The translations under genes and the position numbers were made by a program. Of a DNA stretch of 64,000 bases, positions 16,127 to 53,707 are shown piece after piece. The stretch covers positions 2,046,001 through 2,110,000 of the forward strand of contig NZ_CP009526.1 in NCBI RefSeq assembly GCF_000969985.1, in the 5' to 3' direction. The number at the start of each line of letters is the position of its first letter. Positions within the stretch are counted from its first letter, which is position 1. The stretch is from Methanosarcina barkeri str. Wiesmoor (GTDB lineage Archaea; Halobacteriota; Methanosarcinia; Methanosarcinales; Methanosarcinaceae). The notes beneath the pieces are model-generated. The model was not told the origin of the DNA. It did no database searches and saw nothing but the letters and a program-made list of their open reading frames with translations.

Positions 16127-16505
16127 CAAAATCACTCCTTTTGTTTACTACATTTACGTACCTTTGAGGGCTTTACGTACCCTTGAAGGCATTTATTTAT
16201 CCTGTTATTGAATAAGGGAAGATTATACTGTTAGCTTACCGGCCCCGACAACCTGTGACATTGGAACCTGCTTCCAATTATAGTCTAAGTTACCCTTCAG
16301 ACTGCTCAGAAATGTTCCCCCACACGAATCACACGAATAAATGAATAAATGAATAAATATGCAGTACTAAATATGTATTATTTTATAATTTTAATATTTA
16401 TAATATATATGGACTTCATTTTACAAACTGCAGTTAAGCTGCTCTTTATTGATTTATTATATCCCCATTTCCCGCAGATTTCTATTTCAAATAAAGCTTT
16501 AACCT
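16127..16505. other. Spacer between LURP-one and sulfatase genes
   Basis: Bases 16195-16320 (aagggaagattatactgtta and onward) resemble 34908-35035, upstream of the AI-2E permease gene. The two could share a promoter or derive from one duplication. The rest is AT-rich with no ORF. Confidence 0.5.
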
Positions 16506-17996
16506 TCAGTTGCTCCCGATTCCCTGCAAGAGTTTTTCCATTGCCTGATCAACGGTAAAGCTTGCTGCTTTCTGGCGCGGAGGAAATTCTTTAAACGTTG
16601 CCAAAAAGTCACCAACTACACCCTGGGCAGGCACCAGCAGGAAAGCATGGTCAAGAAGCCAGTCATAATAGGTGTTTGAAGTTTGATCCGCCCTCTCATA
16701 AGGGTCTGTACGCAGGTTGAATATTTTCGGTATTCGCAGTGGGACAAAAGGTTCAGCCCAGACCTGTAATGTACCGGTAGCGCGCTGCTCCATAAAGACC
16801 ATTTTCCAGTTATCATACCTGAGAGCTACCAGGTCTCCATCGTCAGAGAAGTAAAAGAACCCGATACGTGGAGATTTCTCCTCCTTCCCGGTCAGGTAGG
16901 GAAGCAGGTTATAGCCGTCAAGATGAACTTTAAAAGTTTTGTCCTCTGCCTTGTAACCTTTCTTGAGCTTTTCCTTGATATCCGTCTCTCCGGCTGCTGC
17001 AAGCAAAGTGGGCAGCCAGTCAAGATGGCTCACAATCTCGTTAGAAACCATGCCTGCCGGAATCTTGCCAGGCCAGCGCATTACCTCAGGCACGCGGAAA
17101 GCTCCCTCCCAGCAGGAGTTTTTCTCATTGCGGAACGGGGTCATGGCTGCATCGGGCCAGGTATTCATATGGGGCCCGTTGTCTGTGCTGTAGACAACAA
17201 TAGTGTCTTCCGCAATACCAAGCTCGTCTAGCAAATTCAAAATTATCCCCACCTGCCGGTCATGTTCTATCATGCCGTCATGGTATTCCGATTGCCAGCG
17301 CCCGGACTGTCCCCTTATTCTGTCTGGAATATGTACCCTGAAATGCATCCAGGTTGTATTTAACCAGACAAAAAACGGTTTTTCAGCCGCATGATGTCGT
17401 TTGATAAAATCAATGGCTGCATCCAGAAATTCCAGATCTACGGTTTCCATGCGTTTTCTGGTCAGCGGGCCTGTGTCCTCGACGCGACCGTTGGCATAGC
17501 TGTGGATTACACCCCTTGGACCATAATTCTTCCGGAAATTGGGAAAATCTTTCTCAGCGGGATAGTCAGGGTTTTCCGGTTCCTCTTCAGCATTCAGGTG
17601 GTAGAGATTGCCATAAAATTCATCGAAACCATGGTTGGTGGGCAGATATTCGTCCAGGTCTCCAAAATGGTTCTTTCCAAACTGTCCTGTGGCATAACCC
17701 AGCGGTTTCAGCAGTTCGGCGATTGTAGGGTCTTCTGGATGAATTCCCACTCTGGCTCCTGGCATTCCCACCTTGCTCAACCCTGTACGGAATACGCTCT
17801 GTCCTGTGATAAAAGCTGCTCTCCCGGCAGTACAGCTCTGCTCCCCGTAAGAGTCTGTAAATCTGATACCTTCGTTTGCTATCCGATCAATGTTTGGCGT
17901 TCGATATCCCATCAGCCCATCGCTGTAGCAGCTAAGGTTGGTGATTCCTATGTCATCTCCCCAGATGACCAGTATATTTGGTTTCTTTTCTTCCAT
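16506..17996 (-). CDS. Arylsulfatase-type sulfatase (Cys-type)
   Basis: The 496-residue enzyme belongs to the formylglycine sulfatases, which hydrolyse sulfate esters. Metal ligands are in WGDDIG (Asp14, Asp15). The activation site is QSCTAGRAAFITGQ, with Cys55 to be turned into formylglycine, followed by the expected A and R. STDNGPHMNTW holds the later Asp-Asn metal ligands, and FGKNHFGD the catalytic Lys-His pair. No signal peptide is seen. The start follows tggagggttaag. The maturase gene lies directly upstream on the same strand (167 bp gap), so both may be co-expressed. Confidence 0.92.
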   Translation of the reverse strand: MEEKKPNILVIWGDDIGITNLSCYSDGLMGYRTPNIDRIANEGIRFTDSYGEQSCTAGRAAFITGQSVFRTGLSKVGMPGARVGIHPEDPTIAELLKPLGYATGQFGKNHFGDLDEYLPTNHGFDEFYGNLYHLNAEEEPENPDYPAEKDFPNFRKNYGPRGVIHSYANGRVEDTGPLTRKRMETVDLEFLDAAIDFIKRHHAAEKPFFVWLNTTWMHFRVHIPDRIRGQSGRWQSEYHDGMIEHDRQVGIILNLLDELGIAEDTIVVYSTDNGPHMNTWPDAAMTPFRNEKNSCWEGAFRVPEVMRWPGKIPAGMVSNEIVSHLDWLPTLLAAAGETDIKEKLKKGYKAEDKTFKVHLDGYNLLPYLTGKEEKSPRIGFFYFSDDGDLVALRYDNWKMVFMEQRATGTLQVWAEPFVPLRIPKIFNLRTDPYERADQTSNTYYDWLLDHAFLLVPAQGVVGDFLATFKEFPPRQKAASFTVDQAMEKLLQGIGSN

Positions 17997-18163
17997 TCTT
18001 AACCCTCCAAATAGAATGGTTTATGGCTCGGTCGTTTATGGCTCGGTCGGCAATTTAAAGCAACCTTCCGAAGTTTGATAGATAAATTTAATTTTTTTCT
18101 TCGCTATACCCCGTTTATCTCACAATCGCATAATTGATCCAGACTACATCTGAACCCTTTGCT

Positions 18164-19480
18164 TTACCTAATTCTCGTTTCCCCTTTCGCGTTAGTTTTC
18201 CTGAGACCATGGCAACGTTTAAACTTTCGGCCGCTGCCGCAGGGACAGGGATCATTTCGCCCTGCCCGGGCAAAAGCATCTTCTAGAGCCATAACTCGCA
18301 TAACTTCCGAAGCTGGGTAACCTCTGCGAATTAAGCCTGCCAGAATCTGCATCGGAAAGTCGATATGCCGGAAGAAAGCTTTCCAGCCCTCGCATAGGTA
18401 GTTCAGTCCGGTTTCCCCGGCAGGAGTGGTAAGGAAGCGGTTTTTAGGGCATTCCCCCTGGCAGGCAAAGAGTACCTCACATTCCCGGCATACCTGTGGG
18501 AGAGTGTCGCATTTGTCCTGTCCGAACCTGTACTGCTTTTCCAAAGCAGCAAGCTCAGAAATCTCTTTTTCCATAATATTGCCAAGCAGATAGTCAGGTT
18601 CCACAAAATGGTCGCATGAATAAAGATCGCCATTGTGTTCCAGAGCAAGCCCAGTACCGCACGTTTCCTCAAAAACGCACATTCCTGAAGGCATACCAAG
18701 CCATCTTCGCGCAGAAGCTTCAAAAGTCTGCACGAATATCTTTCCCACATCGTTTCTTACCCACTCGTCAAAAATGTGGTTCAGGAAATTGCCAAACTGC
18801 TCTGGCTGCACAGAACGGTTCGAAACTGTGTCTCCTCTCTGATAAAGAGTATGTCCCTCTTCATTGATTCGCTCTACAACCGGAATAAACTGCATCCAAT
18901 CTGTTCCTGCTTCATCCCTAAGGAAGCGGTAGACTTCAAGTGGATAATCGGCATTGGCCCTGTTTACTGTGGTCAGGACATTGTATTCAACACCGTGTTT
19001 TTGCAACAGTCGAAGCCCCTTCATGACCTGGTCGAAAGTTCCATTGCCTTTTTTGTCCACCCGGTAAGCATCGTGCAATTCACGAGGACCGTCGATGCTG
19101 ATCCCTATAAGAAAATTGTTTTCCTTAAAAAACCGGCACCACTCGTCATCCAGCAGCGTGCCGTTTGTTTGCATCGTATTTTCGAAAGATATGCCTGGTT
19201 TTCTGTATTTTTCCTGCAGTTCGATTGCACGCCGGTAAAAATCTATTCCCATAAGTGTGGGTTCCCCTCCCTGCCAGGCGACGGTTACCTGCGGGCTGTG
19301 GTGGGCTTCGATAAGCTGACGGATGTAGTTTTCCAGAACTTTGTCTGACATGCGGAACTTGCTGCCTGGGTAGAGTGCTTCTTTAGCCAGGAAGAAGCAG
19401 TAGGAGCAAGCAAGGTTACAGATAGCTCCTGTTGGTTTTGCCAGCACATGAATGCGTGGAGGCAGATGGTTTTTTGTCAT
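18164..19480 (-). CDS. Anaerobic sulfatase maturase, radical SAM with SPASM and SEC-C
   Basis: The 438-residue protein has the radical SAM cluster CNLACSYC (Cys21, 25, 28), VAWQGGEPTLMG, the SAM-binding region, and the SPASM cysteines of the sulfatase-maturase family (CGTGLALEHNGDLYSCDHF, then CRECEVLFACQGECPKNRF). These enzymes convert Cys or Ser to formylglycine without oxygen. A C-terminal SEC-C zinc motif (RNDPCPCGSGRKFKRCHG) is an add-on seen in part of the family. The sulfatases at 16506-17996 and 24220-26574 have Cys in the proper motif and are the likely substrates. Confidence 0.93.
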   Translation of the reverse strand: MTKNHLPPRIHVLAKPTGAICNLACSYCFFLAKEALYPGSKFRMSDKVLENYIRQLIEAHHSPQVTVAWQGGEPTLMGIDFYRRAIELQEKYRKPGISFENTMQTNGTLLDDEWCRFFKENNFLIGISIDGPRELHDAYRVDKKGNGTFDQVMKGLRLLQKHGVEYNVLTTVNRANADYPLEVYRFLRDEAGTDWMQFIPVVERINEEGHTLYQRGDTVSNRSVQPEQFGNFLNHIFDEWVRNDVGKIFVQTFEASARRWLGMPSGMCVFEETCGTGLALEHNGDLYSCDHFVEPDYLLGNIMEKEISELAALEKQYRFGQDKCDTLPQVCRECEVLFACQGECPKNRFLTTPAGETGLNYLCEGWKAFFRHIDFPMQILAGLIRRGYPASEVMRVMALEDAFARAGRNDPCPCGSGRKFKRCHGLRKTNAKGETRIR

Positions 19481-19882
19481 TTTCGCTCCAGTTTCTAATT
19501 ATTCGTTGATTCTTCCGGGTTTTGAAGCAATAGCCAGCCTGAGTATATTAAGTATAATTAGAATACTGGCCTTCAGGCAGTATTTCTGTTTACTGCTGTG
19601 ACAATACCATGCGTGTTTCAGTTTCTCTGCCCCTTCTTTCCCCTATATGTTAGTATCAAATTATGTTAGTATCAAATCATTGTTCTTGTCTTACAATAAA
19701 TTCCAAAAAACTGCATTTTCTGAGGGACGATTTATCGATCAAAGATGGGTAAGGAACTAAATTTTTGCTCTACCCTATGAACTCTTATTTATTCATGAAC
19801 TGTTATTCTTGCCCTAAACTCGATTTCAGAAATATTTCAGAAACATTCGTATTTCCTGAGTATGTAGTTTTTCACTCAAATT
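19481..19882. other. Spacer with decayed duplicate sequence
   Basis: It holds a 3' scar of a sulfatase gene (19590-19631). The text near 19680-19745 (attgttcttgtcttacaata and onward) matches the sulfatase-DUF1269 spacers at 26676-26816 and 31166-31281. Confidence 0.6.
19590..19631 (-). pseudogene. Scar of the large sulfatase, last codons only
   Basis: Read on the minus strand, ETETRMVLSQQ and a stop correspond to the end of the 784-residue sulfatase (AETRMVMARQ, stop). The plus-strand word accatgcgtgtttcag is identical at both places. This marks where a further copy of that gene was deleted. Confidence 0.55.
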
Positions 19883-20074
19883 TCAGTATACAGGTGCAGT
19901 TTCTTCCTCGGCAAAGGCTTCACGTAGTTTGTTTTCTTCTTCTTTAGACAAGTTAGAAGCAATTAGTTCAAATTTCATTTCACTGGCAGCTTCTGACACC
20001 TTATCCTGAACTGCATCACTGGTCATCAGGAAAAGAGCTGACGTACCTTCTGTCACTTTGCTCTGGACTGACCC
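19883..20074 (-). pseudogene. DUF1269 protein, 3' fragment (copy 1)
   Basis: The C-terminal third of a DUF1269 protein is kept: SKVTEGTSALFLMTSDAVQD, then MKFELIASNLSKEEENKL and a tail ending AFAEEETAPVY. It matches the intact genes at 26817-27320 and 31282-31788. The N-terminal two-thirds, including the glycine-rich hairpin, is missing. Past the break the DNA (20075-20170) resumes homology with the region upstream of the intact copies, so an internal deletion took place. Confidence 0.8.
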
Positions 20075-20458
20075 GTATAAAACATCAGTTTGTTGCTTAT
20101 GCGCTTTAAGATCAGTTTGTCAATAGAGACGAAATCATCATCTCTACGCTATTGTAAATCTTGAAAAAGCTGGGTTTTCTGTCTTCATCCTTAGCTACAA
20201 GTTCTCTGCTGTCTTAGCATGCCGCAAAATAGTAACCAGGAATAAGTATCGATTAAATCTCTCGTTAACCCCAACTGAACCTTCGAGATTTTTCCCCAAG
20301 CTCGTCATTCAATAATTTACTTTAAATAATTCTTCTTTTACACATATTATTTTATGCATATTGATTTATTTTATCGGGTCTTTTAAACGTGATTATCTTT
20401 AATATCGAAGATGTTCTATTCTTTCTTGCTGATCTTATTTTCATTTTAAGTTCTCACT
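20075..20458. other. Spacer homologous to two later intergenic regions
   Basis: Matches the spacers at 27321-28214 and 31789-32500 in patches, for example near 20325-20440 (ataattcttcttttacacat, cgaagatgttctattctttc). No ORF is seen. Confidence 0.6.
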
Positions 20459-21019
20459 CTATTCGGAAGCTGTTAACTCAGTTTTCTGGTTAGCAAAATG
20501 AACAACGATGTCAGAAGAAGGCATTGCTATATTTGCATTTATTAGAGCCTTATAAATTACCGTATTCAGTTTTTCAGATACTTTTTTATTGTTAACTATC
20601 GCCTGACCAAACCCTGCATCGGTAGGAGAAAGCATAACTCCTATAAGACCTGCTTCTGCAAGTGTTATATTCTTAAAAAGAAAAGCAGCAATAATAGCTC
20701 CAAAGACTATTGTAAGCGGCATGCCAATAAGTAGAAGCCGGCCTGGAAGTTTTTCTTCACGCAATAGTGCCTGCAAATCAATTTTTGAGGCATCCGAAAA
20801 TAAAGTCAGGACAAGCGCCAGCTCAGCTAAATTAAGAATAAAAGTGCTGCTTGAAGAGAGATTTACCAGGTAAAGTCCTTCTGGACTGAGCAGCATTCCT
20901 GCTGCCACAAAGATCATAGGGGCTGTGACTACAGTGTCTGAGATCTTTCGGGAAGCAAGGCCAAAGAGGAAGAGCAACACTGCAAAAGCTATGAAATAAA
21001 TTGTGATTTCTGACGTTAT
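20459..21019 (-). pseudogene. Antiporter-MscS chimera formed by deletion (copy 1)
   Basis: The frame joins antiporter sequence (RKISDTVVTAPMIFVAAGML through MLSPTDAGFGQAIVNNKKV, equal to residues about 1-147 of the intact gene at 29564-30874) to the last 45 residues of MscS (SEKLNTVIYKALINANIAMP, then SSDIVVHFANQ). The fusion is in frame and the stop is that of MscS. The original start codon appears as ATA (21017-21019). A GTG at 20980 could start a 173-residue product. It has at most four helices of the antiporter and no pore domain, so it should be inactive. Confidence 0.82.
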
Positions 21020-21128
21020 GGAAATCCCTTTTGTTTCAGGTTATGCTCTCACATTTGTGCAGTCGATTGTTTCAATATCTGTTTTTGATATCAGTACATT
21101 GTGCATCCGTTTTTTCCTTAGAAGTTCT

Positions 21129-22499
21129 TTATTTTATCCGCTTTACCGAGGGTGGTGTCCACCTATTCTCAAGGATATCTATTTTGGGCCAATAAGTTCG
21201 GAGATATAATGTGAAATCAGACTCTGGTGCAGGTAACCAGTTGGGAAGTTTTTCCTCTTCTGGAGGTTCAGCCTGTACGTAAAGAGTTAGTGATCCATCG
21301 GTGCCATATTGTAGATTCCTGTTCTTTGTGCCCAGAGAGTAGCGGTTCAGAGTATTTGGAGCAAAGAAGTGATATTCGTTATAAAGCGTGAGTGACCAGA
21401 AACCTTTAACTGGTGGAAGCATACCTCTGGAAAAGATAACCGTGTAATAATGGCCTCCGTTCAGCCGTTCCCCCGCAGCATCGAGATCCTGGTAGAAGTA
21501 CTTTGTCTCCAGTGGCTGGTTAACAAAAATATTTGATTTGGCAACAGCTGTGCGTGTAAAATAATCCGTACCGAAAACAGCGCCGTTTGTTATAGTTGTC
21601 CAGTTATATGGACAGGGAATACCGTAGTTCCGGAACTGGAAAAGTGGTTTGATAAGCTCTTTGTCTGCCTCGATGGAGGCCTGCTGGAGTACATTTTTGA
21701 GAGTTGTATTCTCATCTGCAGCTTTCAGGACTGCACGAATTTGTTCGTAGAGCGTCTCCTCACTTGGAAGTGGCGGAACCTCGTCCAGAACCTGAGGCAG
21801 CACTTCAGGAAAAGCCTCAGGCACAACCCACTGTACCTCTTCCTCGCCTCCTCCTATGGACGGAAATTCAGGGGTCTTTGACCAGTCTTTTGTTTTTATC
21901 TCTCCTGTGAACTGGCTCAGGGGATATGCCATGATCTGACTGATTAGTGGCTGGATTTTTTTCCTGTCATCGGGGGTGTCGTTCATAAAGACACGTGGAA
22001 TAATAACACCAATATTGGTAGGTGACCGAAAGACATCTTTGACGCCTTTTGGTAGATCCCCTTTCCATTCCGGACCGACAAGCATATAGAATCCAGGTTC
22101 AGTCCCATACATTTTCCCAAGCCTTGTAAAGCCGTCAGTACGCTGGTCACATGCCTGATAGACCCAGAACCTGTCCCCAAAGTCCGGCACCTGAACGATA
22201 ACAGGCTCACGGTCAAGAGAAATAATGCCAAAACCATATACTACATCCTGATTCGGGCAGGCGACAATCCGTTCCATCGGGTCTATGTAATCGGTTAACA
22301 TGCTTAACTGATTTAAAGGTGCTACAGGCACAATCCCACCAGCCAGGCCAGGCTCTGGAACTTTCTGAAATATGGTGTGGCGATTGTGCATGTTCACCAT
22401 TGGCCAGGTCATAAAGTAAGCCAGCCGTCCAAGCATCCTGACGTATTCCTCTGTCAGACGTGTTCCGGCGATAGGCCCTGAAACTGATTTTGTTTCCAT
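21129..22499 (-). CDS. DUF1254/DUF1214 domain protein
   Basis: The start is the ATG at 22499, after aaggaaggggga; an in-frame upstream extension lacks such a site. About 456 residues. The N-terminal DUF1254 region has AYFMTWPMVNMHNR, TDYIDPMERIVACPNQDVVY and DFGDRFWVYQACDQRTD. The C-terminal DUF1214 region has GGHYYTVIFSRGMLPPVKGF, WSLTLYNEYHFF and the ending LPAPESDFTLYLRTYWPK. These proteins are beta-rich and are usually periplasmic in bacteria; no signal peptide is seen here. The function is unknown. They often neighbour sulfatases and DUF389 genes in bacteria, as here. Confidence 0.92.
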   Translation of the reverse strand: METKSVSGPIAGTRLTEEYVRMLGRLAYFMTWPMVNMHNRHTIFQKVPEPGLAGGIVPVAPLNQLSMLTDYIDPMERIVACPNQDVVYGFGIISLDREPVIVQVPDFGDRFWVYQACDQRTDGFTRLGKMYGTEPGFYMLVGPEWKGDLPKGVKDVFRSPTNIGVIIPRVFMNDTPDDRKKIQPLISQIMAYPLSQFTGEIKTKDWSKTPEFPSIGGGEEEVQWVVPEAFPEVLPQVLDEVPPLPSEETLYEQIRAVLKAADENTTLKNVLQQASIEADKELIKPLFQFRNYGIPCPYNWTTITNGAVFGTDYFTRTAVAKSNIFVNQPLETKYFYQDLDAAGERLNGGHYYTVIFSRGMLPPVKGFWSLTLYNEYHFFAPNTLNRYSLGTKNRNLQYGTDGSLTLYVQAEPPEEEKLPNWLPAPESDFTLYLRTYWPKIDILENRWTPPSVKRIK

Positions 22500-22637
22500 A
22501 TATATTCCCCCTTCCTTTAGTATGAAAAACCTATTACTTGCAGGTATTCTCATTAAGTATGTTTGTTATTCAAAGAATTTCATTCCCGTTTTGTCATCCT
22601 TATAGTTGATCGGTTTTTTAGATTTCCACATCTCCTT

Positions 22638-23203
22638 TTACTTTCCTGGCTCTGAAGAAGAGTTTTTTTGATCATGGGCCTCTTCTTCAGGCATTTCTAT
22701 CCTTTTCCCCATCTCACCTCCTATAAACATCAGTAGGATAAGGCCTGCAAGTGCCACTACCATTATCATGACCATTACGTCCGGGTCTGTGAAATTGAGC
22801 GTGGCAATTGCCAAGGCTGCCGAAAGGTTGCGCTGGGCTGTCCCGAGGGCAAGCACTCTCTTGATAGGCCTGTTGGATCCTCCGAGGAAGTAGCCTATGA
22901 CAAATGAAACAAGCACAAAAACTACCGCTACCATAACCGCTGTAGTCCCGATGACATTAACAAGGTCTGAGAAATAAACCACAAAGAAAGCCACAAAAAG
23001 GACAAATAAGGAGCGAGCATGGGTATGAATATGAAATTGGCTACGATGGAGAAGATTACCAGTTTCGTGTTTCTTAGTGGGACAAGTATCTGCTGAACTG
23101 TAAGGGAGAAACCCATGGCAAGCATGCTGGAGAGTACGAAAATCAATGTCGAAAGGATACCAATTGTTTCAAGGAAACTCAAAAATGGAACAGGCTCAAC
23201 CAT
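22638..23203 (-). pseudogene. Bile-acid:sodium symporter family protein with internal deletion
   Basis: The start is at 23203 after gggaggaag. The first part (FLETIGILSTLIFVLSSMLA, MGFSLTVQQILVPLRNTKLV, IVANFIFIPMLA) is the N-terminal helices of the BASS/SBF family. The last part (22638-22994) is the C-terminal helices, with RVLALGTAQRNLSAALAIAT. The two lie in different frames and about 100 residues of the middle, with core transport helices, are missing. Family members have about 300 residues. The C-terminal part could start at an internal ATG, but that would leave no transporter. Confidence 0.78.
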
Positions 23204-23252
23204 TCTTCCTCCCTTCAGTTCAAAATCTCTCAGTTTATATGACGCAGCGTAA

Positions 23253-23609
23253 AACCCCTGAATCTTTAGCTCAGGGGATATAAACGTCAACTTCCTCACG
23301 TTCTCTTGTTATTGATTTTGTATACTTACTTGTATTATTAACATTAATATGTTTATAGATACAGACACCACAACCCAAAATACGAAAACCAAGTTGAGGG
23401 AGTTGGAGAACAGAGTATCTTTCATACCTGGAGGGATCGGGAACGTTAAGCCGGAGAAAACCGGAAGTCGAAAGACATCTCAAGTATAATCTAATGCACA
23501 TATTCTATTTCACCTTCGGAACGAGGGGCTAGGACCTGTATGACTCGTCAACATTGGTTGGGAGAATGACTCAGGAAGCCCATAAGTCTTTAGCTTAGGG
23601 GTAGTTCAC
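23253..23609 (+). mobile_element. Degenerate IS605-family miniature element
   Basis: The ends match those of the IS605-type element at 52462-54165. The left-end hairpin cccctgaatctttagctcag (23255-23274) corresponds to 54128-54149 in inverted sense. The right end (taagtctttagcttaggggt, then agttcac, ending 23609) corresponds to 52462-52492. The interior has no tnpA. A plus-strand frame at 23349-23489 (TKTKLRELENRVSFIPGGIG, then NVKPEKTGSRKTSQV) looks like the C-terminal tail of an IS1341-type TnpB (memory-based). The right end still overlaps the stop of the LURP-one pseudogene. Confidence 0.7.
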
Positions 23610-24157
23610 TCGTGTGCCATCTGATCAAGGGCTGCCGTAATTGTCAAGATAAATGCATTATCCTGGCCAAGAGCAATTTCTACTCCATAGGTATTCTTTA
23701 TCCGAAACCACTTTTTTGAGATCTCTGCAACTTTTTTCCTCCCAGCTTCAATCCTATATACTCGTGGTTCAGAATATTGCTCTGGACATTCATTTCAGGC
23801 CCATTTGGAACTTCAACTTTCCAGCGGTCTCGAAGAGGTGTGATCAGAGCTTTTTTGATAGTCGCAACTGTTTCACCTTCTGCATTTTGAATATCCATCA
23901 TGTCCCTGACACGGAAAATCCATCATGTCCCTGACCTGGAGAAGCTTCTCTTTGAGTTTATACAACTCTTTACCCTGTGAATTCTTGATAATCAAAGTGT
24001 TTCGCGCTCGAAGAGCTTTGCCATCGACATAGATAATTTTCTTTCCAGCTTCGTTTTCTATCCAGTAGTCATCTCCGGTAACAAGTTTTTCTTGCATCTT
24101 ATAGAGTTGTACTCTTTCTTCTCCACGGCCTCTGAGGCTTCCCATGATTCGCCTCAT
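23606..24157 (-). pseudogene. LURP-one-related protein, frameshifted paralogue
   Basis: A paralogue of 15599-16126 (MRRIMGSLRGRGEERVQLYK, GDDYWIENEAGKKIIYVDGK). Two lesions are seen. An 18-base word (atccatcatgtccctgac) is repeated after 7 further bases near 23895-23940, adding 25 bases and shifting the frame. A second shift lies near 23755 (HEY, then the frame resumes at IEAGRKKVAEISKKWFRIKN). The family C-terminus follows up to AALDQMAHE and the stop. It lies just downstream of the 784-residue sulfatase gene. Confidence 0.85.
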
Positions 24158-24219
24158 TAGAATAACCCCTTTTATTTAGTTTTATAAAAAGGATAACTGA
24201 GTATGCAAGGCTGAATTAT

Positions 24220-26574
24220 TTATTGCCTTGCCATGACCATGCGTGTTTCAGCTTCCTTGTCCTCGATCAGTTTGCCGCTCACGTCCACATTTACGCTGTA
24301 GATCTTGCCTGTGAACTCAAAAGGAGGCTCGTAATCAGGTGTAACCGGTGATCCATGAGCTGAGCCACAGGTAATCCCACTGGTTAGCCCGAGTATAAGC
24401 GGAGTCGTTACAGGGATCTCAGCCTGGCCGACTAATTTTCCGTCTATATAGAGCTGAGCCTTTCCAGGTGTACCCTTACCATTGGCAACATCTGGCTTAC
24501 CGGTCACCTCAAACTCGAAGCGCAGTTGATGCCGTCCTTCTGGAACATTTTCTCCGGATTCTACATGATAGAGGGCCTTGGCTACATAGTTATGTACCCA
24601 GTGCAGCTTTCCACCTTTAATATAAAATGAATAGCCGGCGTCGATACCACCATGGGCGAGCAAGATTCCTTCAGCACCCTCTGGTGGAATCTCTACATCG
24701 GCAGTGATGCTGTGTGCGCGGTTAAGAACATTGACAGTTGCGTTTGCGGGAACTGGCTGAGTTCCGGGATAATAAACGTAGTTAGTCCGATCGGCTGCAA
24801 TCTGTGGCCGTTCATCAGCAAGGCGCAGCACTCCTCGGGCATCGATAGGCAGCACATTATATTTTCCTGCCTCTGCATACCAGGTAGCAATCATCTCGAT
24901 TAACTTCGGCCGGTTTTCTGCAGCTACATTCTCATTCTCTGTCCAATCCTTCTGAACATTGTAAAGTTCCCAGCCTTTTGCGTCCAGATCGGTCAACTTT
25001 TCTGCAGTAATCGGTTCACCAAAGGGTTTTCCTGCTTCAGTGAATGAAGGGCCAGGCCATGGGCATACGGCACGCCAGCTATCATGATACAGGGAGCGGT
25101 GTCCCATCATCTCGAAATACTGGGTGTGGTGTCTGGTAGGTACACTGGCATTGTCGAGAGTATGCGCAAAACTTATGCCTTCAATAGGCGATTGGGTTAC
25201 ACCTTTGATAGCAGTCGGAGGTTCGATTCCCAGGCAGTCCAGAACTGTAGGTATCATATCGATAACGTGAGCATACTGATTTCGGACTTCACCTCTTGCC
25301 TTTATCCCCCTGGGCCAGTGGACTATGAAGGGGTCGCTGACACCGCCACGGTAGGTTTCACGTTTCCAGCGGCGGAAGGGTGTGTTTCCAGCAAAGGTCC
25401 AGCCCCAGGCATAGTGGTTGAAGGTCTCCGGGCCCCCCAGCTTATCCAGCAATGAGAGGTTCTCTTCTAGCGACTCAGGCACGTTGTTGAAAAATAAATT
25501 CTCGTTGACTGATCCCGCAGAGCCGCCTTCGGAGCTGGCACCATTGTCGGAAATCACCATGATTAAGGTGTTTTCAAATTCACCAATGTCTTTCAGAAAC
25601 TGCAGCAACCTGCCGATGTGGTAATCGGTGTGTTCCAGAAATCCGGCAAAGACTTCCATCATGCGGGCATAGAGCTTCTTTTCTTCCGGTGAGCATTCTT
25701 CCCAGGGCTTGACATCCGGGTCATGACGGGATAGTTTTGCATCTTTTGGAACGATGCCCAGTTCCTTCTGCTGTGCGAATGTTTTCTCCCTGTAAGCCTC
25801 CCAACCGTCATCGAATTTCCCTTTATATTTGTCTGCCCATTCTTTAGGAACATGATGAGGAGCATGCATGGCTCCTGTGCAGAAATACATGAAAAAAGGC
25901 TTGTTTGGAGCTACTTGTTTGGCATCGGCAATGAACTGGATAGCCCTGTCAGCCAGATCCTCATTCAAGGTGTAACCTTCTTCTGGAGTCTTGGGCGGGT
26001 TTACAGAATGATTATCATAGGTCAGTTCAGGGTAATACTGGTGAGTCTCACCTCCTAAAAAACCATAAAAACATTCAAAACCTCTTCCTAAAGGCCAGCG
26101 GTCATAAGGCCCGGCTGCCGAGATCTGGTCTGCAGGCGTCAGATGCCATTTGCCTATAGCATAAGTGTTGTATCCATGCTCGAGAAGTATCTCTGACAAA
26201 AAGCCATTTTCAAAAGGTATATAGCCGTTGTAGCCGGGATAGCCTGTTGAACCCTCTGTAATACAGGCCATGTTGTTTGAATGGTGATTTCGGCCGGTCA
26301 ATATGCATGAACGACTAGGAGAGCAAAGCGCAGTCGTATGCATATTACTGTAAATGAGGCCTTCTGCAGCCAGGCTTTCCAGGTTTGGTGTCTGGATAGG
26401 GCTGCCATAGCACCCAAGTTGTCCAAAGCCTGTGTCGTCCAGCACAATGAAAAGTACGTTTGGAGCCCCCTCTTTGGCGCGCAGTGGTTCCGGCCAGGCT
26501 GGTTCAGACTTGTCAAACGTGCGCCCGATTACACCTGGAAAAGTGGTTCCTGATTTGTATTCTTTTAGTGGCAT
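24220..26574 (-). CDS. Large arylsulfatase (Cys-type) with C-terminal beta domain
   Basis: 784 residues. Metal-binding VLDDTGFGQLGCYG (Asp46, Asp47), activation site TTALCSPSRSCILTGRNHHS with Cys84 as the formylglycine precursor, AIGKWHLTP (Lys, His) and VISDNGASSEGG (Asp, Asn). Residues about 560-784 form a lectin/LamG-like beta sandwich (SITADVEIPPEGAEGILLAH, then AQLYIDGKLVGQAEIPV) as in large bacterial AtsA-like enzymes. No signal peptide is seen. Scars of two more copies of this gene lie at 19590-19631 and 30976-31066. The substrate is unknown. Confidence 0.93.
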   Translation of the reverse strand: MPLKEYKSGTTFPGVIGRTFDKSEPAWPEPLRAKEGAPNVLFIVLDDTGFGQLGCYGSPIQTPNLESLAAEGLIYSNMHTTALCSPSRSCILTGRNHHSNNMACITEGSTGYPGYNGYIPFENGFLSEILLEHGYNTYAIGKWHLTPADQISAAGPYDRWPLGRGFECFYGFLGGETHQYYPELTYDNHSVNPPKTPEEGYTLNEDLADRAIQFIADAKQVAPNKPFFMYFCTGAMHAPHHVPKEWADKYKGKFDDGWEAYREKTFAQQKELGIVPKDAKLSRHDPDVKPWEECSPEEKKLYARMMEVFAGFLEHTDYHIGRLLQFLKDIGEFENTLIMVISDNGASSEGGSAGSVNENLFFNNVPESLEENLSLLDKLGGPETFNHYAWGWTFAGNTPFRRWKRETYRGGVSDPFIVHWPRGIKARGEVRNQYAHVIDMIPTVLDCLGIEPPTAIKGVTQSPIEGISFAHTLDNASVPTRHHTQYFEMMGHRSLYHDSWRAVCPWPGPSFTEAGKPFGEPITAEKLTDLDAKGWELYNVQKDWTENENVAAENRPKLIEMIATWYAEAGKYNVLPIDARGVLRLADERPQIAADRTNYVYYPGTQPVPANATVNVLNRAHSITADVEIPPEGAEGILLAHGGIDAGYSFYIKGGKLHWVHNYVAKALYHVESGENVPEGRHQLRFEFEVTGKPDVANGKGTPGKAQLYIDGKLVGQAEIPVTTPLILGLTSGITCGSAHGSPVTPDYEPPFEFTGKIYSVNVDVSGKLIEDKEAETRMVMARQ

Positions 26575-26675
26575 TTGTCCCCCTATCTATATGAAAACTC
26601 CTAAAAAATTTATAAAATTAAGGGTGTGAAGAGGAACTGAATTTACCCTGCACCCCACTCGTTTTCTTCTTGAAT

Positions 26676-26758
26676 TTTTGTTCTTGACTTATTTTTGTTC
26701 TTGACTTATTTTTGTTCTTGACTTATTTTTGTTCTTGACTTATTTTTGTTCTTGACTT
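26676..26758. repeat. 18-bp tandem repeat, 4-5 copies
   Basis: A head-to-tail unit ttgttcttgacttatttt in the spacer between the large sulfatase and DUF1269 genes. Single copies of the core (attgttcttg) occur at the same place in the two decayed blocks (near 19679, 31172 and 31210), so the expansion took place after duplication. Confidence 0.9.
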
Positions 26759-26816
26759 AAGCTAAATTCTGAAAATACGCATTTTCCCAGAGAGGCGTTT
26801 TTTCGATCAAATTTTA

Positions 26817-27320
26817 TCATGCTGGAGCTGCTTCTTCTTCAACGAATGTCTCATGCAGTTTTTTCTCTTCTTCTGCGGATAGGTTGGTAGCAATGATTTC
26901 AAACTTGAGCTGTTTCATGGCATCTGCGACTCTATCTTCTACAACATCACTGGTCATCAAAAAGAGAGCTGAAGTGCCTTCAGTCACTTTGCTGCGCACT
27001 GACTTTATAAAATCCTCATTGATACCCACATGAGACATGGAACCTGCAAGTGCGCCCATTGCTGCCCCAACAACCAGACCAAGTATAGGAACAAAAAAAA
27101 TCAGGCCAAAAAGCATACCCCAAAAAGCTCCACTCAATGCGCCTACACCTGCTAAATTGTGCAGTTGCTCTGTTTTTGGCTTCTTTTTCCCCTCAGGCCA
27201 GGTAACTATGGCTGCGTCATGCAGGTTGATCAATTGTTTCTTGCTTAAGTCCTCAACCACGTGAAGCGCTTTTTGGGCGCCATCGGTAGCTTCAAATTTC
27301 AAAACTGTTAAAGTTGCCAT
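26817..27320 (-). CDS. DUF1269 family protein (copy 2)
   Basis: 167 residues. The N-terminal domain has FEATDGAQKALHVVEDLSKK and DAAIVTWPEGKKKPKTEQ. A glycine/alanine-rich hydrophobic hairpin (GALSGAFWGMLFGLIFFVPI, then GLVVGAAMGALAG) may insert in or bind membranes. The C-terminal domain reads VRSKVTEGTSALFLMTSD. It lies between the sulfatase and MscS genes, all on the minus strand. DUF1269 proteins occur in stress clusters of many bacteria; the molecular role is not known. About 75% identical by eye to the gene at 31282-31788. Confidence 0.92.
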   Translation of the reverse strand: MATLTVLKFEATDGAQKALHVVEDLSKKQLINLHDAAIVTWPEGKKKPKTEQLHNLAGVGALSGAFWGMLFGLIFFVPILGLVVGAAMGALAGSMSHVGINEDFIKSVRSKVTEGTSALFLMTSDVVEDRVADAMKQLKFEIIATNLSAEEEKKLHETFVEEEAAPA

Positions 27321-28214
27321 TACTCAAACCTCTTTTTATGTCGCATACTTCGTTGATTATTGTGTTTTCTTGTCAGTTCACCAATAGAGAGACGATCATC
27401 TCCACTATCGTTTTGTAAATCTTGAAAAACCTGGATTGATCATGGAGTTGATCATGTCTCTTCCCTGGGTTACACATTTTCTGCTGTCTCAACATGCAAC
27501 AGCATAGTAGGCTGGAGAGAGCCTTACTTAAACTGTCAAGCTTTTTGTAGCAGGATTCAGGGAATAGCCAATTTGTTGCAGGAGAGCCCTAATATGATTT
27601 TCTTCATGCAGTGTGATCTTGCATATTTCGCATGTATTGATATCCTTCCACAGGCTAATGTCATGAAAATTTAGTTATTGATAATCTAATTAGCTCAAAA
27701 TCATTGTGTTCTGATGTGAAACTACCAAGATGATGCTTAATAATTAAATTGCCAAAACACTAGCGTCAATTCTCAAGGATTCAATTATTTCGAATAATTG
27801 CAATTGATTTTATGCGACGTTTTGTTGTCTACATGACATACGACGTTTTATTTTCTACATGACAATGTGCTGTCCAGAGATTGGACTGTCCAGAGATTAG
27901 GCTGTCCAGAGGTAGGAAAATCAATTAAAATTGTTTTTTGAATTCTCGATTTCAACCTGGATGCTGAGGTGTGTCGAATGTCTCTTTCATTACGAAAACC
28001 TCTTGCAGGAATCTACAGGTTAATTTTTATACTGTCAATTCCCCCAATAGAACCTCCGAGATCTCCCCAAGCTCGATGTTCAATAAATTACTTTATATAA
28101 TTATTCTTTTATATATATTATTCTATGCATGTTGACTAATTTTGTCAGGTCTCCCGAAATAGATTACTCTTTGAAATTGAAGATGTTCTATTCCTTCTGC
28201 TAATCTTATTTTTT
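27321..28214. other. Long conserved spacer between MscS and DUF1269 genes
   Basis: Almost 0.9 kb without a gene. Patches recur in the spacers at 20075-20458 and 31789-32500 (gtcagttcaccaatagaga, tgatatccttccacag, cgaagatgttctattc). Short local duplications are present (tgtccagagattgg and gacgttttgttgtctacatg repeated near 27830-27905). Persistence in three copies reflects duplication and need not mean function. Confidence 0.6.
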
Positions 28215-29315
28215 TTAATTCTTGTCTTTTTTGGAAATTGTTAACACATTTCCCTGGTCAGCAAAATGAATAATGATATCAGAAGAAGGCATTGCTATAT
28301 TTGCATTTATCAAAGCTTTATAAATTGCCGTATTCAGTCGGTCTTCTGAAACCCTTGTCTCTACATAATCCTCTATCCAGCATCTGGCTTTGAGCTTCAT
28401 CCCTGACCCTGTGAACTCGAGTAAAAGGACCTGTATAGGATTTTCATGCATGATCCAGTCTTCTTGCTTCATAGCTTCAATAATCAGATCCCGTACGTGC
28501 TCTATATCCGGACCGTAGGATACAACTACATCGGTCTCTACACGGTATATCTTATCGGGTATGGAATAATTAGTGATCAAATCCATTCCGATTACAGAAT
28601 TGGGGATTATTACAAGCCTATTGTCTCTTGTAAGAATACGCGTTGACCTCCACCCGATCTCTACCACATCTCCCCACGTATCGAGTTTTTCGATTCGAAT
28701 ACGGTCTCCGATTCTGAAGGGGCGGTCAATTAAAAGCACAATTCCGGTAATGATATCAGCAAGAGTTGTCTGGGCTGCAAGTCCAATGATTATTCCACTG
28801 AGACCGAGAGCTGTAAGTGATGCGGTAAGTGCAGTTCCCGTGATTCCGAAATGTTTCAGGAGTATAACTATAGCTAGAAAACTGAAAACCAGCAGAAATA
28901 TGTATTGTATGGAGCGAACAACTCGCTGGTCGATTTTTTCCCGATCCCGCAATGGTACCCTGGATAAGTACCAGTTTGAAGTGATAGATATGAGGCGAAT
29001 AATTATATAGACTCCTATACTCCAGTAGAGAAGGAAAAAGAGATCATCCACTAATTTTGAATAGATACCTACAGGCTCACTGAACAGCCTTACTATCGCC
29101 TGCATTCCCTGCAAAATAATATAAAGTAACAAGAGATTTTCTAAAAGGCGGAGTATTCTGTCATCAACTGTTGTTTTTGTCTTTTTGATTGCCGGCCAGA
29201 GCAAGCGCTTCAGAAATAATCGACTTACTATTATGGCTCCTATTGTCAGTACCAGAATAAAAGCCAGCCTCAGGAGAATTCTGCCAAGCGGCAGCATCTG
29301 TTCAATTTCAACCAC
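28215..29315 (-). CDS. MscS-family mechanosensitive channel
   Basis: 366 residues, GTG start after gggagaaatgt. TM helices are at about 13-35, 60-78, 93-112 and 137-155. The pore helix region follows (LTASLTALGLSGIIIGLAAQ), then the beta domain (LLIDRPFRIGDRIRIEKLDT, VVEIGWRSTRILTRDNRLVI, IPNS) and a C-terminal alpha/beta domain. Such channels release solutes after osmotic downshock. The antiporter gene lies upstream on the same strand. C-terminal remains of two more copies are at 20459-20600 and 32505-32670. Confidence 0.94.
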   Translation of the reverse strand: MVEIEQMLPLGRILLRLAFILVLTIGAIIVSRLFLKRLLWPAIKKTKTTVDDRILRLLENLLLLYIILQGMQAIVRLFSEPVGIYSKLVDDLFFLLYWSIGVYIIIRLISITSNWYLSRVPLRDREKIDQRVVRSIQYIFLLVFSFLAIVILLKHFGITGTALTASLTALGLSGIIIGLAAQTTLADIITGIVLLIDRPFRIGDRIRIEKLDTWGDVVEIGWRSTRILTRDNRLVIIPNSVIGMDLITNYSIPDKIYRVETDVVVSYGPDIEHVRDLIIEAMKQEDWIMHENPIQVLLLEFTGSGMKLKARCWIEDYVETRVSEDRLNTAIYKALINANIAMPSSDIIIHFADQGNVLTISKKDKN

Positions 29316-29382
29316 TCACATTTCTCCCAGTCCCTAATTGTTTATACTCTGACCGGTAATGAACCGTTTTTTATTTTCATAT

Positions 29383-29525
29383 TTTACATCTCTCCTTTAC
29401 ATCTCTCCTTTACATCTCTCCTTTACATTTCTCCTTTACATTTCTCCTTTACATCTCTCCTTTACATCTCTCCTTTACATTTCTCCTTTACATCTCTCCT
29501 TTACATTTCTCCTTTACATCTCTCC
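29383..29525. repeat. 13-bp tandem repeat, 11 copies, upstream of MscS
   Basis: Eleven copies of tttacatctctcc or tttacatttctcc. On the minus strand, the coding sense of both neighbours, each copy reads ggagagatgtaaa, which contains a Shine-Dalgarno-like GGAG, an ATG and an adjoining TAA. The array lies in the likely leader of the MscS gene, after the antiporter stop. Confidence 0.92.
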
Positions 29526-29563
29526 GTGTTAAAATACAACAGGAGTGCCTTTATTCATACTAA

Positions 29564-30874
29564 CTATTTTCTTTTATAACCAAGTAATTGGGTCTGATAG
29601 TCCAGATTATCGGGGCTTGTAGAAGACTCTCCTACCTTCTTTTTTTCAGGTGCATCAGCAGGCAGCGCTGCTACTATGCGGGAATACCATTCACTTCCAG
29701 GTCCTGCTGTCGCTCCCTGGACAAAGACGCTTAGAAAAACAGTTGTGGTCACGGCAAGACTTAGAGTTTCACTTCCCCCAATTCCTCCAGTTTCTTCCAT
29801 AGCAATCAATAACAGAACAACAGATGCGAGACCTCTGGGCCCAAACCATCCAAGGAAAAGTACGGTTTTAGTATGCAATTTCATGCCTATCAGGGAGATT
29901 GCAACAGGTATCATACGGATAAGCGTAAGGCTCAGCACCGCATAGATAAATATTGGCCAGCTGATTGAAAAAATTCTTGCAGCCACTGTAATTCCGAATA
30001 TGAAAAAAACTGCAAAACTAAGTATGCTCCCTTCAGCTTCTGTAAGGATGATCTCTTCTTCTGTAGCTTTTATTTTACCTGCAGCTTGAGTAATGAGCCC
30101 ACCTGTAAAAGCGGCAATGAACCCACTACCCCCAATCAAGTCTGCTACAAGCCAGGAGATGACAGCCAGGGACATAAACCCGATTTTGCGGTAAAGCCCT
30201 GACATCCATCCGACCCTTACAGCTTTGCTAGAAAGCCATCCCCCTGCAAGCCCTACAACTGCGCCCACAAGCATTCCTATACCTATCTGTTCAAACGCCA
30301 GGACGATCAGGGTACCTACTGGCTGTTCTAGTGCCTCTCCACCTGCAAGTATCAGGAAAAAGAGAAAGAAAGGAATTGCACCCCCGTCATTGAGTCCACT
30401 CTCTACGTTGAGTGCCTGCCTGATTTTTGCAGGTACTTTTTTATTGTTAACTATCGCCTGGCCAAGTCCTGCATCGGTGGGAGAAAGCATGGCTCCTATA
30501 AGACCTGCTTCTGCAAGTGTTATATTCTTTAAAAGAAAAGCAGCAATAATAGCCCCGAAGGCAATTGTTAGCGGTGTTCCAATTATTAGAAGCCGGCCTG
30601 GAAGTTTCTCTTCACGCAATAGTGACTGTAGCTCAATTTTTGAGGCATCCGAAAATAAAGTCAGGACAAGTGCAAGCTCGGCTACATTAAGAACTGGAGT
30701 GCTGCTTGAAGAAAAACTCACAAGGTCAAGCCCTTCTGGGCTGAGCAGCATTCCTGCTGCCACAAAGATCATAGGAGCTGTGACTACAGTGCCCGAGATC
30801 TTTCGGGAGACAAGACCAAAGACAAAGAGCAACACAGCAAATGCTATGACAAAATATTCAATTTCTGAGGTCAT
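29564..30874 (-). CDS. Cation:proton antiporter, CPA1-type
   Basis: 436 residues with about 12 TM helices. The family motifs are MLSPTDAGLGQAIV (residues 129-142) and NVESGLNDGGAIPFF (156-170), with the ion-binding ND pair, and later GWFGPRGLASVVLLL. Predicted to exchange Na+ or K+ for protons across the cell membrane. The polar C-terminal tail (PEKKKVGESSTSPDNL) is cytoplasmic. The 5' 147 residues were duplicated and survive in the chimera at 20459-21019. The upstream DNA is alike in both copies (gtttcagattatgctctaac). Confidence 0.94.
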   Translation of the reverse strand: MTSEIEYFVIAFAVLLFVFGLVSRKISGTVVTAPMIFVAAGMLLSPEGLDLVSFSSSSTPVLNVAELALVLTLFSDASKIELQSLLREEKLPGRLLIIGTPLTIAFGAIIAAFLLKNITLAEAGLIGAMLSPTDAGLGQAIVNNKKVPAKIRQALNVESGLNDGGAIPFFLFFLILAGGEALEQPVGTLIVLAFEQIGIGMLVGAVVGLAGGWLSSKAVRVGWMSGLYRKIGFMSLAVISWLVADLIGGSGFIAAFTGGLITQAAGKIKATEEEIILTEAEGSILSFAVFFIFGITVAARIFSISWPIFIYAVLSLTLIRMIPVAISLIGMKLHTKTVLFLGWFGPRGLASVVLLLIAMEETGGIGGSETLSLAVTTTVFLSVFVQGATAGPGSEWYSRIVAALPADAPEKKKVGESSTSPDNLDYQTQLLGYKRK

Positions 30875-30975
30875 GAATATTCAATCTGAGGTCATGAAAA
30901 TTCTTTTTGTTTCAGATTATGCTCTAACTGTTGTGTAGTCGATTGTTTCGCAATTTTCCTGGATCTGTTTCTTGA

Positions 30976-31066
30976 TATGTGTCGGCCAGGCTGGTTCAGA
31001 CTGGCCAAATGTGCGCCCGACCACTCCTGAAAAAGTGGTACCTGGTTTGTATTCTTTAAGCGATAT
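30976..31066 (-). pseudogene. N-terminal scar of the large sulfatase (copy 3)
   Basis: On the minus strand SLKEYKPGTTFSGVVGRTFG, then QSEPAWP matches the start of the 784-residue sulfatase (PLKEYKSGTTFPGVIGRTFD, KSEPAWP). The start codon is ATA here and the rest of the gene is gone. It lies directly upstream of the antiporter gene, marking the boundary between tandem blocks. Confidence 0.75.
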
Positions 31067-31281
31067 TTACCCCCTGTCAATTTTGAAATTTTAGGAAAAC
31101 TTATAAAAAAGAACAATTTATAAAAAAGTTAGGAGATTTACTTTGCGTTTTTCCCCTCCATTTATTTTAAAATCATTGTTCTTGCTTTGCAATCTATTAT
31201 TTTATTTTAGAATTGTTGTTCTTGCTTTGCAATCGATTCCAGAAATTTTTGCATTCCTAAAAGGTGGTTTTTGATCAAAAT

Positions 31282-31788
31282 TCAGTATGCTGGAGCTGCT
31301 TCTTCTTCGGCAAAGGCAGCACGCAGTTTGTCTTCTTCTTCTTTTGACAGGTTGGAGGCAATGAGTTCAAAATTCATTCCCCTGGCAGCTTCTGCCACCT
31401 TATCCTGTACAGCATCACTGGTCATCAAGAAAAGGGCCGATGTGCCTTCTGTTACTTTGCTGCGTACTGATCTTATGAAATCGTCACTAATTCCTATATC
31501 GGCCATTGAACCTGTCAGTGCACCCAGTGTAGCCCCAACGACCAGACCAAATATAGGAATAAAGAAAATCAGGCCAAACAGCATACCCCAAAAAGCGCCG
31601 CTCAGTGCACCTGCACCTGTTAAATTGCGCAGTTGCTCTGTTTTTGGCTTCTTTTTCCCCTCAGGCCAGGTAACTATGGCTGCATCATGCAGATTGATCA
31701 ATTGTCTCTTGCTTAAATCTTCAACCACATGAAGCGCTTTTTGGGCGCCGTCAGCGGCATCAAACTTCAGAACTGTTAAAGTTGCCAT
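31282..31788 (-). CDS. DUF1269 family protein (copy 3)
   Basis: 168 residues, intact. It shares with the gene at 26817-27320 the segments ALHVVEDLSKRQLINLHDAA, GALSGAFWGMLFGLIFFIPI and VRSKVTEGTSALFLMTSDAV. Divergence is greatest in the last 35 residues. The ribosome-binding site (aaaggaggtttgagta) is better than in copy 2. Its block partners (sulfatase, MscS, antiporter) are lost or reduced to scars, so it alone stayed functional from copy 3. Confidence 0.92.
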   Translation of the reverse strand: MATLTVLKFDAADGAQKALHVVEDLSKRQLINLHDAAIVTWPEGKKKPKTEQLRNLTGAGALSGAFWGMLFGLIFFIPIFGLVVGATLGALTGSMADIGISDDFIRSVRSKVTEGTSALFLMTSDAVQDKVAEAARGMNFELIASNLSKEEEDKLRAAFAEEEAAPAY

Positions 31789-32504
31789 TACTCAAACCTC
31801 CTTTTATGTCGCATACTTTGTTGATTATTGTGCTTTCATGTCAGTTCACCAATAGAGATGAGACCATAATCTCCAGTATCGTTTTGTAAATCTTGAAAAA
31901 CCTGGGTTAATCATGTCTTCTTCCCTGGGTTACACATTTTCTGCTGTCTCAACAGCCGCAGCACAGTAGCCGGGAAAAAGCCCTGCTTAAATTCCTCAAA
32001 CCATTTTGTACCGGGGATAAAAGGAATAGACAGTTCGTTGCAGGAAAACTAGCATATGATTTTTTTCATGCAATTTTATTTTACATATTAGCGCTTACTG
32101 ATATCCTTCCACAGACTGCGCTATTCGAGGTGGATTAATCAATTAAAATTCCTTTTTGAGTGCTATCTTTTTTGACTGCTATCTTTTTTGAGTGCCACAG
32201 GTATTAACCTGGATGCTGAGAATTCGTCAAGCGCCTGTCTTATTACGAAAACCGCTTGCCAGGTATCCTAGCAATTTTAAAGTGTTAACCCCCAAGTGCA
32301 ACCTTCAACGGAACTTTCGAGATCTTCCCCAGGCTCGTTGTTCAATAATTTACATTATATAAATGATCTTTTATATATATTATTTTATGCGTGTTGATTA
32401 ATTTTGTCAGGTCTCACGAAATAGATTTCTCCTTAAAATCGAAGATGTTCTATTCTTTCTGCTAATCTTATTTCCTTTTTTAATTCTCGCCTTTTTTTGG
32501 AAAC
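31789..32504. other. Spacer homologous to 27321-28214
   Basis: No gene is seen. Large parts align with the spacer of copy 2 (caatagagatgagaccataa, tcgttttgtaaatcttgaaa, gatatccttccacagactg). A local repeat (gctatcttttttgagtg, gctatcttttttgactg) lies near 32160. Confidence 0.6.
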
Positions 32505-32670
32505 TGTTAACTTAGTTCCCTGGTCAGAAAAATGAATAATGATATCAGAAGAAAGAATTGCTATATTTGCATTTATCAGGGTTTATAAATTACCGTATCA
32601 GTCGGTCTTCTGAAACCCTTGTCTTCATATAATTTTCAGTCTAGCATCTGGCTTTGAACTTCATCATCAG
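32505..32670 (-). pseudogene. MscS C-terminal remnant (copy 3)
   Basis: On the minus strand one can follow MKFKARC, a stop, TENYMKTRVSEDRL and frameshifted text for the final strand, against GMKLKARCWIEDYVETRVSE in the intact MscS. Several stops and frameshifts make it non-functional. Confidence 0.75.
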
Positions 32671-32750
32671 TCTCGATATGGAATCAATACGAAATTCGTC
32701 ATTGTCAGTGACAAATACTTAATACTTAAATTTGAGCAGGCAGCTTTTTA

Positions 32751-32848
32751 GAATCAGCTTTTCAAAATCAGCTTTTCAGGATCAACTCTTCAGAATCAAT
32801 TTTTCAGAATCAATTTTTCAGGATCAACTTTTCAGAGTCAGCCTTTCA
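32751..32848. repeat. 14-bp tandem repeat, 7 copies
   Basis: Degenerate copies of gaatcaacttttca run up to the stop of the DUF6325 gene and include its last codons. It probably arose by slippage at the gene end. Confidence 0.85.
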
Positions 32849-33406
32849 GAATGCAGGTGCTGCCTGAGGTCCCTTTTTCTTTTTCTCTGCAAATTTAACA
32901 GCTTCTGTCAGTTCTTCTCCAACCGCAACGAGCAGCTCAGGTGTGAGCATACCCTGGGAAACCAGCACTCCTCCTGCATCTCGGATCGCCTGTTTCAGGT
33001 TTTTTGCCCATAGGTGTTCAATAATAAGGATAGCAGCGGCGGTACCTTCAGGTATAGCCTCAGTTATCTCCAGGATATCTTCTTCAGTGATTCCATAATT
33101 CTCCTGGGCTGCTGCAAGGATTCCTGCCTCTGTGCCTCCTCTAGCCCCTTCTTCACCGCCAGCTCCGTATCCGATAAGTCCCCCAACGACAGCACCAAAA
33201 CGCATTCTTTCTTCTTCATCCAGTTGTGTAGTCTCAAGAGACTTGATATTCCCATCTTCGTCTTTCCATATAAACAGCAAATCAATAAGCCTGATCATAC
33301 CTTTATTCATGACTGATTCAAGTTCACGGCGGATCTGACCGTGGAAGTTCGGATTGTCAAATACTATGACTAAGAGCTGCATTGGTCCATACATTATTTC
33401 ATCCAT
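32846..33406 (-). CDS. DUF6325-like protein
   Basis: 186 residues. The first ATG follows agggggaacagag. The pattern YGPMQLLVIVFDNPNFHGQI, GMIRLIDLLFIWKDEDGN, RFGAVVGGLIGYGAGGEEGA and GTAAAILIIEHLWAKNL fits the DUF6325/DUF1269-like group, with a glycine-rich middle loop and ferredoxin-like halves. The function is unknown. It is not a duplicate of the DUF1269 genes but likely shares their fold. It stands alone on the minus strand between MscS remains and an AI-2E permease. Confidence 0.82.
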   Translation of the reverse strand: MDEIMYGPMQLLVIVFDNPNFHGQIRRELESVMNKGMIRLIDLLFIWKDEDGNIKSLETTQLDEEERMRFGAVVGGLIGYGAGGEEGARGGTEAGILAAAQENYGITEEDILEITEAIPEGTAAAILIIEHLWAKNLKQAIRDAGGVLVSQGMLTPELLVAVGEELTEAVKFAEKKKKGPQAAPAF

Positions 33407-52461: not shown

Positions 52462-52700
52462 GTGAACTACCACTCATCTAAAGACTGAGTGGCTTCTTGG
52501 TTCATTCCTCCCTCTATTGAGGGCAAGTCCCCAAGCTCTTCCCCGCGTTCCGCAGGTGTTATAATCCAATTAGATTTTGATCTATGAGAGCAAATTTCTT
52601 GATATTGATAGCGGCATTTATATCTCTATCATGTTTTGTTTTACAGTCTGGGCAAGTCCATTCTCTATCTTTTAATGTCAAATATGAATTATGATATCCA
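52462..52700 (-). ncRNA. Probable omegaRNA (reRNA) overlapping tnpB 3' end
   Basis: TnpB proteins use an RNA made from the 3' part of tnpB and the right end, and the 15-20 bases beyond the right end act as guide. On the minus strand the scaffold would run through cggggaagagcttggggact, gagggaggaatgaacc and the hairpin at 52470-52492, ending gtagttcac. The guide would be the next bases outward (52461 down to about 52442, aactacataaaaaagaaaac). The start point is a guess. Confidence 0.5.
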
Positions 52701-53671: not shown

Positions 53672-53707
53672 ACAGGGTAGTATATGATTTAACAACATAT
53701 ATACTTT

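Follow-up and report, generated by a model that had tools for sequence, protein, structure and literature searches.

The window, a stretch of 64,000 nucleotides from a Methanosarcina chromosome of 4.87 Mb, carries three colinear blocks of one gene unit, a layout that is very probably the product of a tandem array that recombines and evolves by birth and death. The array unit comprises genes for an antiporter, an MscS channel, a DUF1269 protein and sulfatase B, every block gene lying on the minus strand, as do the remnants and the tract described below, and a sulfatase maturase, sulfatase A and LOR are situated downstream of it. Block A (24219-30949) is full, and remnant blocks B (30983-32665) and C (19589-21073) lie on either side. 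Block A contains an intact sulfatase B gene (24220-26574; 784 aa; Pfam PF00884, E 5e-70, with a CSPSR motif in the sequence), a DUF1269 gene, DUF1269a (26817-27320; PF06897), an intact MscS-type channel gene (28215-29315; PF00924, E 8e-20, and PF21082) and an intact gene for an antiporter of the Na+/H+ or K+/H+ type (29564-30874; PF00999, E 3e-36).

Blastn comparison of the 16-36 kb region with itself yielded matches that were all same-strand and colinear, and that covered the spacers as well as the genes. Blocks A and B matched from the sulfatase N-terminus into the spacer (26491-27656 versus 30983-32117, 76%, E 0) and again over spacer and MscS tail (27954-28401 versus 32206-32665, 83%, E 3e-122); A and C matched in the antiporter (30425-30949 versus 20570-21073, 84%, E 4e-165) and the MscS tail (28042-28338 versus 20269-20570, 81%, E 2e-73), and B and C in DUF1269 (31201-31470 versus 19788-20071, 77%, E 3e-59). 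Chance is excluded for these main matching pieces (E 3e-59 to 0), and neighbouring blocks show the colinear, same-orientation homology, spacers included, that is expected of tandem duplication followed by loss. The self-alignment thus bears out the initial annotation of this DNA, which had described one full block between two decayed ones with like spacers and had named a lack of colinear homology as the contrary outcome; its block coordinates agree with ours to tens of bases, and DUF1269 is, as it had claimed, the only block gene with two intact copies.

In block B, a 34-codon N-terminal stub of sulfatase B (30960-31085; matched by tblastn, and 84% identical to A) is joined to the antiporter leader of A, as seen in the junction alignment. 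It is followed by the intact DUF1269b gene (31282-31788; 168 aa, 80% amino acid identity to DUF1269a), and by the spacer with a frameshifted MscS C-terminal tail (31789-32670; 83% to A over 27954-28401). Block C retains the last third of a b-like DUF1269 gene with its downstream spacer (19788-20082; 77% to B, and 85% to DUF1269b over residues 107-168 by tblastn), remains of the MscS-DUF1269 spacer (20089-20300; 75% to 31817-31980 of B), the MscS C-terminal tail with the following spacer (20301-20570; 81% to A and B) and the N-terminal part of the antiporter with its leader (20571-21073; 84% to A, E 4e-165). A scar of the sulfatase B C-terminus (19589-19632; 81% over 37 bp to 24219-24255) is weak as a match by itself (37-44 bp, E 0.008 in one blast and 3e-4 in another) and was assigned mainly because of its position just upstream of the maturase gene; next to or shortly upstream of that gene an intact sulfatase is found in the related genomes G002 and G040, and a 133-residue remnant in G003.

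Across one join in block C an in-frame fusion ORF (20459-20980), seen in the translation, links ~155 antiporter codons to ~40 MscS codons. That this ORF encodes a new functional protein, so that C would not be a dead remnant, is highly improbable: some 190 codons are still open across the join, but the original ATG of the antiporter has become ATA, leaving an internal GTG as the sole start, the product would comprise half of an antiporter and would lack both the pore and the beta domain of MscS, and the ORF is absent from every relative examined. Its dN/dS is moreover relaxed (0.32-0.49), as against 0.10-0.20 when the antiporter and MscS genes that are intact are set beside those of G002 and G014. 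Given the altered start, the fusion ORF is probably dead. The antiporter of C differs from that of A by a dS of 0.34, which makes their divergence roughly as old as the separation from G002. C found no firm place in the antiporter tree, which gives no order of events for it, and conversion can decouple block sequence from position; the MscS tree was built without the tails of B and C, which are too short.

Divergence was not uniform along the duplicated segment. A and B were 0.88-0.95 identical over the MscS tail, the proximal part of the leader and the N-half of DUF1269 and 0.68-0.80 identical over its C-half, an unevenness attributable to conversion and to older paralogues. MscS tails and antiporter pieces differ by ~10-20% between copies, and within one remnant an MscS tail ~90% identical to A adjoins a DUF1269 C-half at ~75%. 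The block copies are thus a mosaic of ages. Neither the uneven ages of the segments nor the conversion tract had been recorded in the initial annotation, and its picture of decay in stages from one founding block is not supported in view of the mixed ages, the old DUF1269 paralogues, the conversion tract and the exchange between species.

The DUF1269a gene is a hybrid, with an N-half of b-type and a C-half of a-type. In half-gene trees its N-half was sister to DUF1269b (support 98/95), whereas its C-half grouped with G002, G017 and G021 (support 100/98). Block A is ~0.90 identical to G002 throughout, except for a patch near 27075-27467 where identity between A and G002 falls to 0.70-0.83 and that between A and B rises to 0.88-0.94. 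The best segment (27521-27045) contains 59 B-like versus 10 a-like sites, as compared with 39 versus 156 outside it, and none of 20000 permutations reached the observed value. Site counts, identity profile and the conflict between N-half and C-half trees therefore agree on a bounded tract that matches the paralogue over the orthologue, a gene-conversion tract of 0.4-0.5 kb (27045-27521) with B as donor and A as recipient, which spans the promoter and leader, the start codon and the N-half of DUF1269. The C-terminal parts of DUF1269a and DUF1269b differ by a dS of ~1.0, older than the divergence of the C antiporter from A; with C-halves in different multi-species clades, the two genes are old paralogues. 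The a-b dN/dS is ~0.18. Since the only DUF1269 copy of G040 is this hybrid gene too, the conversion most likely predates the split between that genome and the window genome. Upstream of the DUF1269 genes, alignment revealed broad conservation limited to the Shine-Dalgarno region, and we therefore claim no shared regulatory element.

In a first set of orthologues, 13 of the 33 DUF1269 copies have ATA at the aligned start, as does a further one in G042. Such starts were located at L034:15673, L035:9549, L036:10495, L037:9072 and 10865, L038:4038, L043:9801, L045:6139, L050:18093, L078/L081/L082/L086:10001 and L157:12883. In eight of these genes the stretch from the upstream stop to codon 21 contains no canonical start, near-perfect Shine-Dalgarno sites stand ~7-8 bases upstream of the ATA, and pN/pS is 0.32 in codons 2-20 and ~0.2 beyond, so that coding constraint extends up to the ATA. 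No clear ATA-start case was seen in sulfatase A, sulfatase B or the maturase; with counts that were approximate and entered by hand (14 of 31 DUF1269 genes versus 0 of 48), Fisher's test gave 2e-7, a value that is indicative only, the rows being phylogenetically dependent. Both DUF1269 copies of the window start with ATG (27320 and 31788). As the ATG of A lies inside the conversion tract and its a-type orthologues have ATA, DUF1269a probably acquired its ATG from B by conversion. We give an even chance to the broader proposal that DUF1269 genes of many Methanosarcina species would initiate at AUA behind a near-consensus Shine-Dalgarno site and that conversion in the array swapped the AUA of A for the AUG of B. 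Through the tract, sequence exchange of paralogues is tied to the replacement of a leader and start codon, and if the proposal is true, copies of the array have their translation starts shuffled. Should the AUA starts be real, these genes are annotated with starts in the wrong place, and the genus is a natural test case for archaeal initiation at codons other than AUG.

AI2E-family transporter genes of G021 (L034:8093), G002 (L035:361) and G017 (L036:17939) likewise align at an ATA that follows a GGAGG site; they have no nearby canonical start from the upstream stop to codon 22, with an upstream TTG at -87 in G021. In the scan of the loci for ATA starts, antisense ORFs and internal starts acted as confounders, and hits were judged case by case; an exact genus-wide pattern of Shine-Dalgarno site plus ATA start, which was too narrow, occurred in 3 of 31 genomes. 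Our literature search returned nothing on AUA starts in archaea, nor on the array locus. Ribo-seq of M. mazei has reported ATG, TTG, GTG and CTG starts for small ORFs (PMC11456600), and ATA does not occur as a word in the main text of that report.

The number of blocks varies among other Methanosarcina genomes, and scars of lost copies are present in relatives, which answers the comparison that the initial annotation had proposed. Between the window genome and these relatives, core genes have dS values of 0.16-0.34 (G040), 0.25-0.35 (G014), 0.31-0.42 (G002, G017 and G021) and 1.0-1.3 (G003). G014 has a longer sulfatase stub directly upstream of the antiporter; G017 and G021 carry a sulfatase N-terminal stub, then a DUF1254 scar and then MscS, the join in G021 being broken by an assembly gap between its parts; G002 shows a DUF1254 scar upstream of the antiporter; and G003 has three DUF1269 genes and MscS-spacer remnants in a different order. 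Scars at equivalent joins indicate that the expansion and collapse of arrays took place independently in several lineages. Given these stubs and scars, the best reading of G002 and other genomes with one block is that their array has collapsed, which would mean that an intact block standing alone in a relative can be such a remainder and not the ancestral state. In G011, 12 DUF1269 matches are scattered across many contigs (loci L049, L055, L057, L058, L063 and L064), many being fragmentary or interrupted; here birth and death of this kind has gone to an extreme.

The dS values between block A and G002 (antiporter 0.35, MscS 0.33, sulfatase 0.35) equal those of the core genes, and A therefore looks vertical over that span; the same holds for its dS to G014. 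This vertical appearance within the species group speaks against the alternative that block A was inserted as a cassette from another Methanosarcina lineage between older resident blocks B and C, the blocks then being partly xenologues. The different clades of the DUF1269a and DUF1269b C-halves would fit such an insertion, as would the dS of the flanking maturase and sulfatase A to G002 (0.72 and 1.0), which exceeds that of block A. The antiporter and MscS pieces of C and the MscS tail of B are nevertheless near A in sequence, as duplicates should be, and stubs at equivalent joins are common to G014, G017 and G021, so that we regard insertion of block A as unlikely and retain the recombining array. 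A further argument for insertion comes from similarity to G003: the window MscS differs from it by a dS of 0.21 and DUF1254 by 0.20-0.27, as compared with 1.0-1.3 for core genes. For this comparison of DUF1254 and MscS, window 21132-22553 was set against L037 and L038 of G003. Both genes are too close for vertical descent, which points to recent transfer of these two and, more generally, to an exchange of cassette parts between Methanosarcina lineages. Cassette transfer accounts for part of the pattern. On a larger scale, the Chloroflexota loci L116, L125, L127 and L131 also have maturase, sulfatase A, DUF1269 and LOR genes near one another (compared with the window at 15599-19480), and the two full-length enzymes, sulfatase A and maturase, are 71-73% identical between Chloroflexota and the window. 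From this clustering and identity, the core module of these four genes appears to have crossed domains.

The copies, ages, tract and scars are outcomes, and the mechanism is read from them. In the recombining array, homologous recombination between neighbouring copies would most likely expand and collapse the array, conversion would patch its copies, internal deletions would wear down redundant ones, and purifying selection would retain one set of the large genes together with two DUF1269 genes. The earlier statement that segment duplication was followed by loss stands in that colinear homology extends through the spacers and comparable remnants occur in other species, but not as one founding block duplicated twice. 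Birth-and-death evolution of tandem blocks comprises duplication, divergence, pseudogenes and lineage-specific loss. All of these are found here too, with the difference that a four-gene unit and its spacers can be traced in one genome, along with equivalent scars in sister species. The array is thus a well-preserved case of known processes, of ordinary gene birth and death, and it preserves in readable form the way in which a block of several archaeal genes multiplies, swaps sequence and disappears in parallel lineages. Conversion and concerted evolution of paralogues have been described in Methanosarcinales for mtmB, mtmC, mtbB and mtbC (PMC6053082), where DUF1269 is not named, and for mtrA in other methanogens (PMC4632066). 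In those cases as in ours, paralogues of the same genome exchange sequence and have parts closer to each other than to their orthologues, but the tract reported here is short, spans the leader, start codon and N-half of one gene, and lies within an array whose other members decay.

Both sulfatases have the type I fold (PF00884) and a Cys-type CxxxR signature in their translations (CSPSR and CTAGR), and the nearby radical-SAM maturase of the anSME type matches TIGR03942 above cut-off, as expected of type I sulfatases paired with anSME. Judged from its gene families (a pair of sulfatases and the maturase that goes with them, a mechanosensitive channel, a proton antiporter and membrane proteins of small size), the array is likely to serve as a surface or ion-stress module.

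The long spacer between MscS and DUF1269 gave no match to an RNA family when 14-40 kb was searched with Rfam. Short satellites with units of 17, 13 and 14 bp occur in block spacers (26657-26759, 29383-29538 and 32741-32852). Methanosarcina genomes are known for abundant short satellites (PMC6749651), and short tandem repeats likewise lie in several spacers of the array locus; here, however, they are small additions, distinct from the duplicated block. Adjoining block A, beside sulfatase B, we found a broken LOR copy (23609-24178, minus strand; 76% to LOR at 15603-16147), frameshifted near a 25-bp tandem duplication (23889-23938), a further pseudogene at the array locus that the initial annotation had missed. 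Two overlapping short ORFs at 22638-23299, of which one weakly matches SBF (bile acid symporter) under the cut-off, look like a frameshifted transporter gene. Finally, a TnpB-like (OrfB_IS605) gene is located at 52559-53740, ~20 kb from the array.
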